A stretch of 64,000 nucleotides of DNA from Brevundimonas vesicularis (GTDB taxonomy: Bacteria; Pseudomonadota; Alphaproteobacteria; Caulobacterales; Caulobacteraceae). The stretch spans positions 868,001-932,000 of the forward strand of contig NZ_CP114278.1 of NCBI RefSeq assembly GCF_027105095.1. Reading direction: 5' to 3'. The notes beneath the pieces are model-generated. The model saw nothing but the letters and a program-made list of their open reading frames with translations, made no database searches and had not been told where the DNA came from. The stretch's first letter is position 1, and each line of letters opens with the position of its first letter. Both the position numbers and the translations under genes were made by a program. Positions 53,991 through 60,490 of this stretch are shown piece after piece.

Positions 53991-54610
53991 CTAGCCGCTG
54001 TCTTTGGCCGCTTCCGCTCGCGAGGCCAACACGTCCAGCACGTCCTGAAACACCATGTTACGGGCATGGAGAAGAACGAGCAGGTGATAGATCAAATCCG
54101 CAGCCTCGCTGGCGAGTTCCTCGTCCGGGCCGGCGACGCCGGCCAGAGCGGTCTCTACGCCCTCCTCGCCGACCTTCTGGGCGATGCGTTTGGGCCCCTG
54201 TGCGAGCAGTCGGGCGGTCCAGCTTTCGGACGGATCGGCGGCTGCCCGTTCGGCGATGGTCCGTTCCAGCCGGGCGATCCGACCCAGGCCCGGCGCGTCG
54301 GCCTTTCCGAAACAGCTCGTCCGGTTCAGGTGGCAGGCGTTTCCGACCGGCCTGACGCCCAACACGATGGCGTCGGCGTCGCAGTCGGCCGTGATGGAAA
54401 CGACGTGAAGTCGGTCGCCCGACGTCTCGCCCTTCCTCCAACGCCCCCCGCGCGAGCGGGAGAAAAAGGTGGCCTCGCAGGATGCGATCGTCTCGTCCAG
54501 CGCCGCGCGATCCATATAGGCCAGGGTCAGGACCTGCAGCGTGGCGGCGTCCTGCACCACGACGGGGACCAGGCCGGCGCCCTTGGCGAAGTCGATGGTG
54601 TTCGGGTCGA

Positions 54611-54614
<4 letters not shown>
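53991..54614 (-). CDS. hisIE: Fused phosphoribosyl-AMP cyclohydrolase/ATP pyrophosphohydrolase HisIE
   Basis: This bifunctional enzyme does steps two and three of histidine synthesis. The HisI half has the zinc and magnesium motif TADCDADA with HLNRTSCF near residues 95-101, and the HisE half has [15 protein letters not shown] near 145-159 and [13 protein letters not shown] near 169-181. In most Alphaproteobacteria hisI and hisE are separate; the fused form, and the wording of the HisE block, resemble enterobacterial and xanthomonad HisIE. The GTG start overlaps the hisF stop (GTGA). Confidence 0.94.
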
Positions 54615-55374
<760 letters not shown>

Positions 55375-55378
<4 letters not shown>

Positions 55379-56112
55379 GAGCGTTTGGCCGCCGCGATCG
55401 CCTCGGGCAGGGTGAAGCAGTTCTCGTAGTGCGCGCGTCCGACGATGGCCCCGTGACAGCCCAGCGCCTTCACCGCAGCGATATCGTCCAGCGAGGAAAC
55501 GCCGCCCGAGGCCTGCAACACCAGATCCGGCCGACGGCTGCGGATTTCGGCCAGTAGATCCAGGTTCGGCCCGGTCAGGGCGCCGTCGCGACCGACGTCG
55601 GTCACCAGCAGGTGTTTGGCCGTCCCCTTGGGATAGCGATCCAACGCCTCCCAGAGCGTCATGCCCGAGGACTGGGTCCATCCCTTCAGTGCAGGCACCG
55701 GCACGCCGTCCTCGATCTTGACGTCCAGGGCCAGGGTGATGCGCTCGACGCCGAAGGTTTCCAACCAAGTCGCCACCGTCTCAGGTTGGGTCACCGCCAA
55801 GGAGCCTACGACGACGCGCGACACGCCGGCGTCCAGCAGCTTTTTCACATCGTCGGCGCTGCGCACGCCGCCGCCCGACTGGACCTTGACGTCGATGGCT
55901 TGGGTCAGTTCACCGATCAGAGCATGCTGACGCGCCTCGCCCGCCTCGGCTCCGTCCAGATCGACGATGTGAATCCACTCCGCGCCCTCGGCCGCAAAGG
56001 TCGTCAGGCGGGCGGCCGGCTGCTGGTCGTAATGCGTCACCTGGGCGAAGTCGCCATGCATCAGGCGCACGCAGACGCCGTCCTTCAGGTCGATGGCGGG
56101 GTAGATCAGCAT
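55375..56112 (-). CDS. hisA: ProFAR isomerase
   Basis: HisA isomerises ProFAR to PRFAR, the fourth step of histidine synthesis. The 245-residue (beta/alpha)8 barrel begins [17 protein letters not shown] with the catalytic Asp near residue 8, and has [17 protein letters not shown] and the second catalytic region [16 protein letters not shown]. It overlaps hisH by seven bases and hisF by four, showing tight coupling. Confidence 0.96.
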
Positions 56113-56708
56113 GACAAACTCAGAAAATTCTTGAGGATGGTCGCCCCGGCCTCGGCCGAGCGTTCGGGGTGGAACTGGCAGCCCCAGCGGTTGGCGGATC
56201 GAACCACAGCCGGAACGACGCCGCCATAGTCGGCGCGGGCCAAGGTGGCGGGCCCGTCAGGGCAGACGTAGCCGTGAACGAAATAGGCGTAGGCGCCGTC
56301 GGCGACGCCCTCCAGCAAGGGGTCGTCGCGGTCGCGCGTCAACCGGCTCCAGCCCATGTGCGGCACCGGTAGATCGCCCGCAGGCTTCAGCCGGGTCACC
56401 GCGCCGGGAATGAGGCCCAGCAGATCGACGCCGTCGCCTTCGTCGCTCGATCCGAACAGCAGTTGCTGACCCAGGCACACACCCAGCAGGGGGCGTGGGA
56501 AGGCGCGGATCGTCGCGATCAGACCCAGGTCCGACAGGCGCTTCATGGCGTATCCGGCCGCGCCGACGCCCGGCAGGATCACCCGTTCAGCCTCGGCGAT
56601 CACGGTCGGATCGTCGGTCAGGCGCACGGTCGCGCCCAGCCGCTCCAGCGCGAACTGGACAGAGGCGACGTTGCCGGTGCCGTAGGCGATGACGGCCACC
56701 TCGGTCAC
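56106..56708 (-). CDS. hisH: Imidazole glycerol phosphate synthase amidotransferase subunit
   Basis: HisH is a glutamine amidotransferase that supplies ammonia to HisF. The 200-residue protein has the oxyanion strand ILPGVGAAGYAM, nucleophile Cys78 in GVCLGQQLL, and the His-Glu pair in CQFHPERSAEAG near residues 178-189. The GTG start overlaps the preceding hisB-domain stop as GTGA. Confidence 0.95.
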   Translation of the reverse strand: MTEVAVIAYGTGNVASVQFALERLGATVRLTDDPTVIAEAERVILPGVGAAGYAMKRLSDLGLIATIRAFPRPLLGVCLGQQLLFGSSDEGDGVDLLGLIPGAVTRLKPAGDLPVPHMGWSRLTRDRDDPLLEGVADGAYAYFVHGYVCPDGPATLARADYGGVVPAVVRSANRWGCQFHPERSAEAGATILKNFLSLSC

Positions 56709-58129
56709 AGAACACCTTTAGTGGACGGCACGGCGTCGCCCTCGACGCGGATGGCCTGGCGCAGGGCGCGGCCGAACGCCTTATAGACGGCTTCGGTCTT
56801 GTGGTGGTCGTCCTGGCCCGTGACCTTGATGTGCACGGCCGCGCCCATGGCCTCGGCCAGAGACCGGAAGACGTGGGCGGTCAGGTCGGTGCGGTATTCG
56901 CCGATGAAGGGGGTCTCGAACGTGCCCTCGAACAGCGGATACGGGCGGCCGGAAAGATCGATCGAGACGGTCGCATTCGCCTCGTCCATCGGCAGGACGA
57001 AGCCGTAGCGGGCGATGCCCTTGCGCTCGCCCAACGCCTGTTTCAACGCTTGCCCCAGGGCGATGGCGCTGTCCTCGATCGTGTGGTGCGGATCGGTGTG
57101 CAGGTCGCCTTCGCATTGCAGACGCAGCGAGAAGCCGCCGTGGGCCGCGATCTGCTCCAGCATGTGATCGAAGAAGCCGACGCCGGTCTCGATCTTCACC
57201 GGACCGGGCGCATCCAGATCGACGACGCAGACGATCCGGGTTTCCTTGGTGTCGCGCACCGCCTGACCAACGCGCGCCGGGCGGCGCTTGGCGGGCGTCA
57301 GGCCAAAGGCGGCGAGCAGCCGGTCGTTGACCTCGGACTTGATCGAGATCGGCAGGCGCAGACGCTCGCCGGACAGATCGGCCTCGACGCCGTAGGCTTT
57401 CAGACCAGCCAGGGCGGCGGCGGGCTCCTCTGGGCGAGCCATGATGATGGGACCGACGCCCGGTTCGACCGGCATCTGGCGACTCAGTTCGCGCACGACC
57501 CGTTCGCGCTCGCGCCGGACCGAGGCGATCCGCTCGGCGGTCTCGATCATCCGCGACGGATCGAGCGCCTGAATCGCCAGCCGCACCAGCGGTTCGGGCA
57601 GGGCGTAGGGTTCCAGCACCGACGCCAGACGCGCCAGGGTCTGGGCTTGGGCGATCGCGGCGCCGACGCGGGCGCCGGCCAAGCCATAGGCCAAAGACAG
57701 GCTGCGCAGCACGACCAGGTTCGGTTGATCGGTGACGACGGTCACGGCCGAGACGCTGTCGGAGAACTCAATCAGCCCCTCGTCCACCATCAGCAGGGCG
57801 GGGGAGACGCGGGCGGCCATTTCGGCGACGGCTTCGGGCGAGCCAAGCGCTCGGATCACGACGACGGCAGGTTCGCCCTTGTTCGGATAGATGGCGGCCA
57901 GGCTGTCGTAGGGCTCGGCCTTCGGGGCCTCGACCGAACCCCCGTCGTGGGCGGCGAGACGATAGGCCAGTTCCAACCCGTGGGTCAGGCCGCGCACCGG
58001 CAGCACCTGGTCGGCAGGCACGCCATAGACGGCGGCCATGCGGACGGCGAGGGCTGAGGCGTCGTCGGGATAGCGATCCAGACCTTCGCCGCCGGAAACC
58101 AGCGGCGGATAGGGAGCGGGCAGGGTCAA
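56705..58129 (-). CDS. hisB: HisC-like aminotransferase-fold domain fused to imidazoleglycerol-phosphate dehydratase (HisB)
   Basis: The 474-residue product has two parts. Residues about 1-270 align with HisC: LDRYPDDASALAV, QVLPVRGLTHGLEL, MVDEGLIEF, NLVVLRSLSLAYGLAGARVG. However, the PLP lysine of TLSKA is Leu146 (codon TTG 57694-57692), the NPNNPTG loop is missing, DEAY is DEGL and the domain is about 90 residues short, so catalysis is not expected. Residues 285-474 are an intact IGP dehydratase with TKETRI, TGVGFFDHMLEQIAAHGG, DPHHTIED, DDHHKTEA and the tail RQAIRVEGDAVPSTKGVL, very close to E. coli HisB. No HisB phosphatase domain is present. The TTG start has GGAGG six bases upstream, inside a palindromic element. 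Confidence 0.88.
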   Translation of the reverse strand: MTLPAPYPPLVSGGEGLDRYPDDASALAVRMAAVYGVPADQVLPVRGLTHGLELAYRLAAHDGGSVEAPKAEPYDSLAAIYPNKGEPAVVVIRALGSPEAVAEMAARVSPALLMVDEGLIEFSDSVSAVTVVTDQPNLVVLRSLSLAYGLAGARVGAAIAQAQTLARLASVLEPYALPEPLVRLAIQALDPSRMIETAERIASVRRERERVVRELSRQMPVEPGVGPIIMARPEEPAAALAGLKAYGVEADLSGERLRLPISIKSEVNDRLLAAFGLTPAKRRPARVGQAVRDTKETRIVCVVDLDAPGPVKIETGVGFFDHMLEQIAAHGGFSLRLQCEGDLHTDPHHTIEDSAIALGQALKQALGERKGIARYGFVLPMDEANATVSIDLSGRPYPLFEGTFETPFIGEYRTDLTAHVFRSLAEAMGAAVHIKVTGQDDHHKTEAVYKAFGRALRQAIRVEGDAVPSTKGVL

Positions 58130-58132
58130 AGT

Positions 58133-58273
58133 GATCCTCCACCGAGAAGCGAAGCGGAACGGGGGAGGGGGACCGCCCGAAGGGTGGTGGAGGGGGCGGA
58201 GCCACACACCGTGTCTGGGGTCGCCCCCTCCACCGCTTCGCGGTCCCCCTCCCCCGCGTTGCGGGGGAGGATC
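58133..58273. repeat. Palindromic CCTCC/GGAGG element between hisD and the hisC-like gene
   Basis: The left arm (58133-58199) begins GATCCTCC and contains CGGGGGAGGGGGACCGC and GGTGGAGGGGGCG. The right arm (58222-58273) carries their inverted copies and ends GGGGGAGGATC. The arms have small length differences, and the centre is about 22 bp. It is the only non-coding gap in an otherwise overlapping gene chain. Read in the gene direction, the GGAGGATC end forms the ribosome-binding site of the hisC-like/hisB fusion. Confidence 0.75.
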
Positions 58274-58286
58274 AGATAGATCACGC

Positions 58287-59594
58287 TCATCCCTCGCTCC
58301 TCAAATCGGCGGCGCGGGCGTGGGCTTCCAGGCCTTCCATCCGGGCCAGGCGGGCGGCGATGGGGGCCAGCTGACGGGCGCCGCCCTCGGTCACCAGCTG
58401 GACCGACATGGTGGTCATGAAGCTGGCGGTGGTGACGCCGCCCAGTGTGCGGGCGCCGCCGTCGGTCGGCAGGACGTGGCTGGGACCGGCGGCGTAATCT
58501 CCCAGCGTCTCGGCGGCGAACCGGCCGACGAAAACGGCCCCGGCGGCCTTGATCGAATCGACCAGCGGCTCGGGATCGTCGATCTGGATGGCCAGGTGTT
58601 CGGGGCCATAGAGGTTGGCGACTTCTGCGGCGGTGTCGAGGTCGCGGACCAGGATGGCGCGGGCCTCGTTCAGAGAGGTGCGGGCGATGGCTTCGCGGGG
58701 CAGGGTTGCGACCTGCACCTCGACCTCGCTCAGGATGTAGTCGATGGTGGCGCGGCTGGTCGAGACCAGCAGAACCTGCGCATCCGCATCGTGTTCGGCC
58801 TGGCTCAGCAGGTCGGCGGCGGCGATCTCGGGCGCGGCGTCGCGATCGACGATGACCATCAACTCCGACGGGCCGGCCGGCATATCGACGGCGGGGCCGC
58901 CCGGCAGGGCGGAGGCCTGCTTCTTGGCCTCGGCCACATAGGCGTTGCCGGGTCCGAACAGCTTGTCGCAGGCGGGAATGACCCCGTCCTCCAGTTCGAC
59001 GCCAAAGGTCAGGGCCGCGATGGCCTGGGCGCCGCCCATCAGCCAGATGGCGTCCAACTCCGCCTCTGCGGCGGCCAGGATCATGGCGGGGTGGATGCCG
59101 CCGTCCTTGTTCGGCGGCGTCACGGCGATGCGCTGGCCTACGCCCGCGACGCCGGCCGGAATGGCCAGCATCAGCAGCGACGAAAACAGCGGCGCGGTGC
59201 CGCCGGGAATATAGAGGCCGGCCGAGGCGATGGGACGCCAGGCCAGTTTGGACCGTACTCCGGGCGTCGTCTCGATGAGGGGGGTGTCCTCGGGCCGGGT
59301 CGCCTGGTGGAAGACGCGCACATTGTCGGCCGCCATGCGCAGGGCGCGCACGTCGCCGGGCGGCAGGGCGTTACGCGCCTCGGCGACAGCCTCGGGCGTG
59401 ATGGCGATGCGATGGGGCGGAGCCTTGTCCAGCTTCAGGCACCAGTCGGTCACGGCCTCGCCGCCGCGCTGGCGCACATCGTCCAGGATGGTGCGGACGA
59501 TCTCGGTCACGTCGCCGGCGGTGCGTTGGGCCGGGCGGGCCAGGGCGGCCGTCTTTTCGGCGGCGTCGAGGGAAGACCAGTCGATGCGTTTCAT
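58287..59594 (-). CDS. hisD: Histidinol dehydrogenase
   Basis: HisD oxidises histidinol to histidine in two NAD-dependent steps with a zinc ion. The 435-residue protein has YIPGGTAPLFSSLLML, GPGNAYVAEAKKQ near residue 214, PSELMVIVD, the zinc/catalytic SQAEHDADAQVLL and the catalytic Glu-His in LYGPEHLAIQ near 323-332. The ATG at 59594 overlaps the hisG stop by one base (TGATG); a GTG three bases earlier is possible. Confidence 0.96.
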   Translation of the reverse strand: MKRIDWSSLDAAEKTAALARPAQRTAGDVTEIVRTILDDVRQRGGEAVTDWCLKLDKAPPHRIAITPEAVAEARNALPPGDVRALRMAADNVRVFHQATRPEDTPLIETTPGVRSKLAWRPIASAGLYIPGGTAPLFSSLLMLAIPAGVAGVGQRIAVTPPNKDGGIHPAMILAAAEAELDAIWLMGGAQAIAALTFGVELEDGVIPACDKLFGPGNAYVAEAKKQASALPGGPAVDMPAGPSELMVIVDRDAAPEIAAADLLSQAEHDADAQVLLVSTSRATIDYILSEVEVQVATLPREAIARTSLNEARAILVRDLDTAAEVANLYGPEHLAIQIDDPEPLVDSIKAAGAVFVGRFAAETLGDYAAGPSHVLPTDGGARTLGGVTTASFMTTMSVQLVTEGGARQLAPIAARLARMEGLEAHARAADLRSEG

Positions 59595-60490
59595 CACATC
59601 ATCTTCTCGATCGGCAGGACCAGAATGGCCGAGGCGCCGGCGGCCTTCAGCTTCTCCAAGGTCTCCCAGAAGACGGCTTCCTGGCAGACGGCGTGGACGG
59701 CGACCGCATCGTCGCGACCCATCAGGGGCATGACCGTGGGCGAGCCTGCGCCGGGCAGGATCGCGGTAATTTCGTCCAGCGCCGAGCGCGGGGCGTTCAG
59801 CATGACGTATTTGGCGCCCTGAGAGGACACGACGCCCGCCATCCGCTCGATGACGCTGTCCAACAGCTGCTGCAACGCCGGCTCGGGCGCGACGGGCGAC
59901 TGAATCAGCACGGCCTGGCTTTCCAGAACCGTATCCTTGGCCCCCAGGCCGTTGGCCTCCAGCGTCGCGCCGGTCGAGACCAGGTCGCAGATGGCGGCGG
60001 CCAGTTTCAGCCGGGGCGCGACCTCGACGGCCCCGCGCATCACGACGATGTCGGCCTTGACCCCGCGTTCGTCGAGGAAGCGGCGCAGGATCTTGGGATA
60101 GGAGGTGGCGATACGCAGACCGTCCAGCGAGGCCGGACCGTCATAGGCCAGCGCCGGAGGCGTGGCGATCTTGAGCGTGCAGCGACCGAAACCCAGCGGC
60201 ATGACGATCGAGGCGTTCTTTTCCTTGGAGTCTGGGCCGCCGTTGCTTCCTTCCTCCAGCACATTCTCGCCGACGATGCCCAGGTCGCACACGCCGTCCG
60301 CCACGAAGGTGGGGATGTCGTCGTCGCGGACGCGCAGCAGGTCGATCGGATAGTTCTCGACCCGGTACAGCAGGTCGTTGTGACCCTTCACCCATTTCAG
60401 GCCCGCGTCGCGGATCAGGTCGAGGCTGCGGTCGGCCAGACGGCCGGATTTCTGTACGGCGATGCGAAGCCGGCCCTGCACGGTGCTCAT
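59594..60490 (-). CDS. hisG: ATP phosphoribosyltransferase, long form
   Basis: HisG starts histidine synthesis by joining ATP and PRPP, and is feedback-inhibited by histidine. The 298-residue protein is the long, self-regulated type with a C-terminal ACT-like domain, so it needs no HisZ. Blocks LRIAVQKSGRLAD, LRVRDDDIP, GIVGENVLEE, CDLVSTGATLEANGL and the end FWETLEKLKAAGASAILVLPIEKMM (shown in part) are almost word for word those of E. coli HisG. That likeness, in an alphaproteobacterial background, suggests horizontal origin. Confidence 0.96.
   Translation of the reverse strand: MSTVQGRLRIAVQKSGRLADRSLDLIRDAGLKWVKGHNDLLYRVENYPIDLLRVRDDDIPTFVADGVCDLGIVGENVLEEGSNGGPDSKEKNASIVMPLGFGRCTLKIATPPALAYDGPASLDGLRIATSYPKILRRFLDERGVKADIVVMRGAVEVAPRLKLAAAICDLVSTGATLEANGLGAKDTVLESQAVLIQSPVAPEPALQQLLDSVIERMAGVVSSQGAKYVMLNAPRSALDEITAILPGAGSPTVMPLMGRDDAVAVHAVCQEAVFWETLEKLKAAGASAILVLPIEKMM

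Follow-up and report, generated by a model that had tools for sequence, protein, structure and literature searches.

A 64-kb stretch of the Brevundimonas vesicularis genome (NZ_CP114278.1; the window, whose coordinates are used throughout) was found to carry, on the minus strand, a gene in which a HisC-like aminotransferase domain is joined to imidazoleglycerol-phosphate dehydratase (IGPD). This gene, hisCB (56705..58129, stop codon included), encodes 474 residues, of which 1-280 form the HisC-like half (57290..58129) and 285-474 the IGPD domain (56708..57277). A start at the TTG codon at 58129-58127 is likely, because a GGAGG (58136..58140), read from the sequence as the probable ribosome-binding site, lies six bases upstream and because the 120 homologues listed are usually 474-476 residues long; the GTG at 58207 in the same frame would give 500 residues. 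The coordinates assigned in a first-pass annotation of this DNA are thus likely to be right. The other genes of the operon lie on the same strand, in the order hisG (59594..60490), hisD (58287..59597), hisCB, hisH (56106..56708), hisA (55375..56112), hisF (54611..55378) and the bifunctional hisIE (53991..54614), and were assigned by curated family matches, except that the start of hisF is approximate, the HisF match beginning at residue 133 of a longer open reading frame. This is the gamma-proteobacterial order hisGDC[NB]HAF[IE], with one gene in place of the hisC and hisNB of E. coli. The spacer between hisD and hisCB (58132-58274) is filled by inverted repeats with arms of 24, 17 and 20 nucleotides, the outer arm including the likely hisCB ribosome-binding site; when translated, the spacer has short matches elsewhere in this and related genomes, which hints at a dispersed element. 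A defence gene was also considered and was rejected, as PADLOC gave no match.

The HisC-like half scored 98 bits against TIGR01141, far below the equivalog cut-off of 276.55. The lysine that binds pyridoxal phosphate (PLP) in HisC is replaced by Leu146 (codon 57692..57694), the NPNNPTG loop is deleted, the DEAY motif reads DEGL, with leucine for tyrosine, and the N-terminal arm is also gone. The first three changes, including the sequence SLSLA around Leu146, had been noticed in the first-pass annotation, and the aligned sequences bear them out; the domain is indeed shortened, but the figure of about 90 missing residues overstates the loss somewhat, since the half has about 280 residues, intact fusions have about 345 and the E. 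coli HisC chain 1fg3 has 356. On these grounds the HisC half is predicted to be catalytically inactive, and a HisC-type fold is present in its predicted model.

To place these changes, three groups with an inactivated (dead) HisC half were compared with 30 active fusions: 48 Brevundimonas rows (at least two pairs of which come from the same assembly, and from which the cut or gapped L044 and L126 were excluded), 18 Asticcacaulis rows and 5 rows from families f3 and f5 of the order, with genomes G068 and G300 kept apart. All 48 Brevundimonas rows have leucine at the lysine site (lysine in 0/48), have lost the NPTG loop and have replaced the DEAY tyrosine; lysine is present in 30/30 active rows. 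The residue before this site is threonine in 30/30 active rows and serine in 48/48 Brevundimonas, 18/18 Asticcacaulis and 4/5 f3/f5 rows. At the PLP-phosphate site, active fusions have G-x-x-E (Glu in 29/30, Asp in 1/30), and the Glu position is occupied by histidine (His50, codon 57980..57982; GADE to GLTH) in 48/48 Brevundimonas, 17/18 Asticcacaulis and 5/5 f3/f5 dead rows and in 0/30 active rows.

The IGPD half, in contrast to the degenerate domain before it, is intact, as first proposed: it scored 198.1 bits on PF00475 (cut-off 27) and 242.8 bits on NF002111 (cut-off 231), and H348, H349, E352, D353, H442, H443 and E446 are invariant in 63 rows. These belong to the metal-binding His/Glu motifs HHTxED and DHHxxE. 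Only a single IGPD match was found in the genome, so this half is presumably active. The proposal that the N-terminal haloacid dehalogenase (HAD) phosphatase of the E. coli type is missing also held in family searches: no HAD family matched the protein, and PRK05446 gave 271 bits against a cut-off of 443, over 166-355 of 355 only. The idea that the HisC half is a leftover HAD domain was rejected for lack of any such match.

A search of related genomes found the fusion unbroken in 31 of 36 genomes of the same genus, at 70-93% identity. Three more copies were interrupted, those of G027 and G030 by contig ends and that of G007 by a contig end together with a run of N, and no IGPD match was obtained in G015 and G023. 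An internal stop was listed for only one of the 31 unbroken copies (G035), and there the stop lies upstream of the 475-residue open frame of L016; pseudogene decay is not supported by these copies. Among 199 genomes sampled across the family, 40 belong to the genus (this one included), and 37 of these gave a match; the one in G148 is an active fusion. In a second genus (g24, relatives named Asticcacaulis) 24 of 25 genomes matched, with E below 1e-113, and all 18 sequences compared have Phe or Tyr at the lysine site. In Brevundimonas the fusion with Leu at this position is retained far beyond chance, and an error of assembly at the Leu codon or at the junction was rejected, because many genomes share both. 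Five genomes of the genus without an IGPD match (G140, G189, G225, G015 and G023, the last only 82% complete) nevertheless have a HisC over the cut-off and are possible histidine auxotrophs.

The separate active HisC and the histidinol-phosphate phosphatase that the first-pass annotation had predicted were both located in the genome. The HisC lies at C1:771527-772573 (292.8 bits, over the cut-off of 276.55), with the lysine, NPxNPTG and DEAY present, and a HisN of the inositol monophosphatase (IMPase) type at C1:644177-644935 (295.8 bits; cut-off 275.15). PMC5516325 reports a HisN of this type as general in Caulobacterales. Counted per genome, the lineages not being independent, a separate HisC was present in 21/21 genomes whose IGPD is joined to a dead or trimmed HisC or to HisD (20 over the cut-off) and in 13/13 others with a dead fusion (G068 and 12 from g24), 34/34 in all, whereas the fusion was the only HisC (E ≤ 1e-50) in 11 of 14 active-fusion genomes, a second one being present in 3, and in G148. 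Within the genus it was found in 35/36 genomes, the exception, G005 (66% complete), having a 199-bit fragment. In these samples, then, genomes with the dead form also carry a second HisC. In nine genomes (G338, G298, G282, G296, G300, G267, G310, G326 and G263) the fused hisB and the separate hisC share a contig and are no more than about 4 kb apart, as would be expected if this locus had gained a new hisC.

The domain is dead here, but it may have been active when the fusion arose, as HisC-HisB fusions with intact catalytic motifs occur in many relatives, namely in families f4 and f5 of the order, in G148, in two bins that carry a beta-proteobacterial label and in others from Bacteroidota and Balneolaceae. 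The 120 best protein-search matches to an active fusion include Allosphingosinicella, Sphingosinicella, Sphingomicrobium, Parvularcula and Marinicaulis. The Bacteroidota fusions (L051, L052, L054, L055, L057-L059, L064 and L114) and the Balneolaceae ones (L053 and L063) keep the catalytic motifs and lack a HAD domain; they may bear on an unexplained short N-terminal domain of Balneolota HisB in PMC8305728, which reports hisNB for its set of Bacteroidetes. G148 (L185), filed in the same genus, has a second HisC besides its active fusion, and about 3 kb from that fusion lies a HisN-like match just below the cut-off (273.8 bits). The automatic label of L223 as an active fusion was rejected from the aligned columns. 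In other lineages HisD is joined directly to IGPD with no HisC part (L224-L227, L237-L239, L241-L249 and L050), a fusion likewise absent from the portion of the literature surveyed, and two proteins of about 800 residues (P0222, P0225), with aminotransferase and histidinol dehydrogenase Pfam domains, are likely HisC-HisD fusions. Orthologues without the first 270 residues had been named as evidence against retention of the domain: other genera do have a smaller HisC part or none, which shows that trimming or replacement of the module is possible, but IGPD of this type stood free in 0/58 cases, which represent few independent events.

Phylogenies gave differing answers on how often the domain died. 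On the HisC-half tree the 24 dead rows formed one clade (support 99.9), and addition of G300 was not rejected (p 0.63); shared loss of the active site could, however, pull dead rows together there. On the IGPD tree a single clade of all 20 dead rows was rejected by the approximately unbiased test (p-AU 0.008), with at fewest four state changes; without G300 the value was 0.043, but with the f3 HisD-fused rows added, which may descend from dead rows, one clade was not rejected (p 0.29). Brevundimonas and Asticcacaulis as one clade were not rejected (p 0.20). The active fusion of G148 adjoins Brevundimonas on this tree (support 70), which speaks for separate death or transfer, and the f4 remnants stand apart from other dead forms, with weak support.

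The first-pass annotation had suggested that a dead aminotransferase fold was kept as a structural, regulatory or ligand-sensing module. That such a fold is kept agrees with the motif loss, the modelled fold and the genus-wide retention under purifying selection described below. As the residues of the ligand pocket differ between dead lineages, a structural role fits better than the other two, and we tentatively favour, as close to an even call, the reading that the dead HisC domain is a structural partner on which IGPD has come to depend. HisC is a dimer and IGPD a 24-mer. The ancestor would have had an operon of gamma-proteobacterial order with a working HisC-HisB fusion, a single chain for pathway steps 6 and 7. 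In genomes with a second hisC, the fused copy could have dropped its lysine, PLP loop and N-terminal arm; the former PLP site would have been closed by a hydrophobic Leu, Tyr or Phe at the lysine position, and a new His fixed at the start of the helix that held the PLP phosphate, the dead domain continuing to pair and to prop the IGPD particle. In other genera it may have been trimmed further, or HisD put in its place, with an N-terminal partner still present.

The dead domain might instead be a passive passenger, a redundant HisC that died and persists only because hisB lacks its own start and because the attached domain has to remain folded if it is not to harm IGPD (constructive neutral retention). 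The separate HisC in all the dead, trimmed and HisD-fused genomes tested, the smaller versions in several genera and the HisD-IGPD lineages without a HisC part agree with this. Selection on the HisC-like half, a check proposed at the outset, was estimated by NG86, which is crude at this G+C content, from 44 Brevundimonas sequences in three bins of rising divergence (36, 324 and 578 pairs); they had been chosen as open frames and so give no independent test for stops. Omega was 0.164, 0.334 and 0.348 for the dead half, 0.154, 0.295 and 0.310 for hisH, 0.101, 0.272 and 0.274 for hisD (partial) and 0.045, 0.147 and 0.144 for the IGPD half. Against the separate active HisC, in 15 genomes, the dead half gave 0.366 versus 0.285 (70-pair bin) and 0.306 versus 0.267 (34-pair bin). 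The dead half is therefore under purifying selection, with a constraint similar to that on hisH and slightly weaker than that on a working HisC, and 58 of its positions are invariant in the 44 sequences. This constraint, the fixation of the derived His and Leu across Brevundimonas, the grouping of the 24 dead rows on the HisC-half tree, which suggests an old state, and the lack of any free IGPD among the cases above all count against a passenger, which we consider unlikely.

It is also improbable, in our estimate, that the dead half is a ligand sensor that binds imidazole-acetol phosphate, histidinol phosphate or PLP and adjusts IGPD activity. Imidazole-acetol phosphate is both the product of IGPD and the substrate of HisC. 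The old cofactor site (141-150) is the most conserved block of the dead half, and Brevundimonas keeps Arg154 (codon 57668..57670; 48/48), presumably the PLP-phosphate arginine position of HisC, Asp116 (48/48), which is kept across all dead groups compared, and the Arg and Tyr at the positions of R335 (47/48) and Y55 (45/48), several binding positions of E. coli HisC thus persisting after the loss of the catalytic ones. In Asticcacaulis, however, the R335 and Y55 positions are lost (0/18 each), with Arg154 kept in 17/18 rows; the R222 position is Arg in 48/48 Brevundimonas and 17/18 Asticcacaulis rows but Pro in 5/5 f3/f5 dead rows, and Arg154 is Pro in the same five, G068 and G300. As pocket residues kept in one dead lineage are lost in another, a common ligand is unlikely, and it is more likely that they share a fold in which the pocket is plugged. 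It is also hard to see how remnant and HisD-fused lineages would sense one ligand. A docking subunit, in which the dead half would pair with the separate active HisC and tether it to IGPD to channel steps 6 to 7, is very improbable: HisC enzymes are dimeric, HisC acts directly after IGPD and active fusions join both in one chain, but the dead half shares only 29% identity with the separate HisC (residues 131-274 of the 500-residue frame).

Several points weigh against a structural partner. The derived His is absent from G068 (Gln), G300 (Asp) and one Asticcacaulis, and the dead lineages lost different sets of residues, the DEAY Tyr being kept in 17/18 Asticcacaulis rows and in 0/48 Brevundimonas. 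The dead half is two- to fourfold less constrained than IGPD and somewhat less than active HisC, and purifying selection on it may reflect only the harm that misfolding would do to an essential neighbour. The alignments behind both models included intact HisC sequences, which biases the models toward HisC. The lack of free IGPD, besides resting on so few events, could reflect the ease of in-frame deletion as a route where hisB lacks its own start, and an internal IGPD start is possible at a GTG at residue 291 (31/44 sequences). A wider proposal is more doubtful: that this IGPD lineage is addicted to an N-terminal partner (HAD phosphatase, active, dead or trimmed HisC, or HisD), a catalytic domain having turned into an obligate scaffold, so that the partner may change or die and IGPD cannot return to the free state. 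If true, one bacterial order would offer a natural experiment in which active fusions stand next to full-length dead (G300), long-dead, trimmed and replaced states. The graded set makes it testable whether a dead fusion domain is kept for its function or for its neighbour's dependence.

The statement that no HisC-HisB fusion of this kind had been described stands for the literature searched, which covered few subscription papers and was only in part aimed at pseudoenzymes: neither a HisC-HisB nor a pseudo-HisC fusion was found in it. The accessible text of PMC1963479 treats hisNB, hisIE and HIS4 without the word hisC, and that of PMC10138114 lists seven fused his genes, none with hisC. Databases, by contrast, carry automatic names that join HisC and HisB activities, and some claim histidinol phosphatase or HisC activity unsupported by motif, which calls for caution in annotation.

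Among known systems, E. coli-type HisNB is alike in operon order (hisGDC[NB]HAF[IE], as given in PMC1963479), in the IGPD half, which scores highest with PRK05446, and in having a second his enzyme at the N-terminus, there a HAD phosphatase and here a dead HisC. Active HisC differs in having the active-site Lys, Asn and Tyr, the N-terminal arm and the PLP loop. Intact HisC-HisB fusions, which occur in alpha-proteobacteria and in some Bacteroidota, have the same two domains in the same order and no HAD domain; 17 such rows are 34-48% identical to the window protein and keep the catalytic motifs. As in pseudoenzyme domains fused to active partners, the catalytic residues are lost and the sequence is conserved under purifying selection. 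The dead HisC-HisB protein is thus a pseudoenzyme domain in a fusion, of a kind common among relatives in its active form and conserved as a pseudoenzyme in Brevundimonas and Asticcacaulis.
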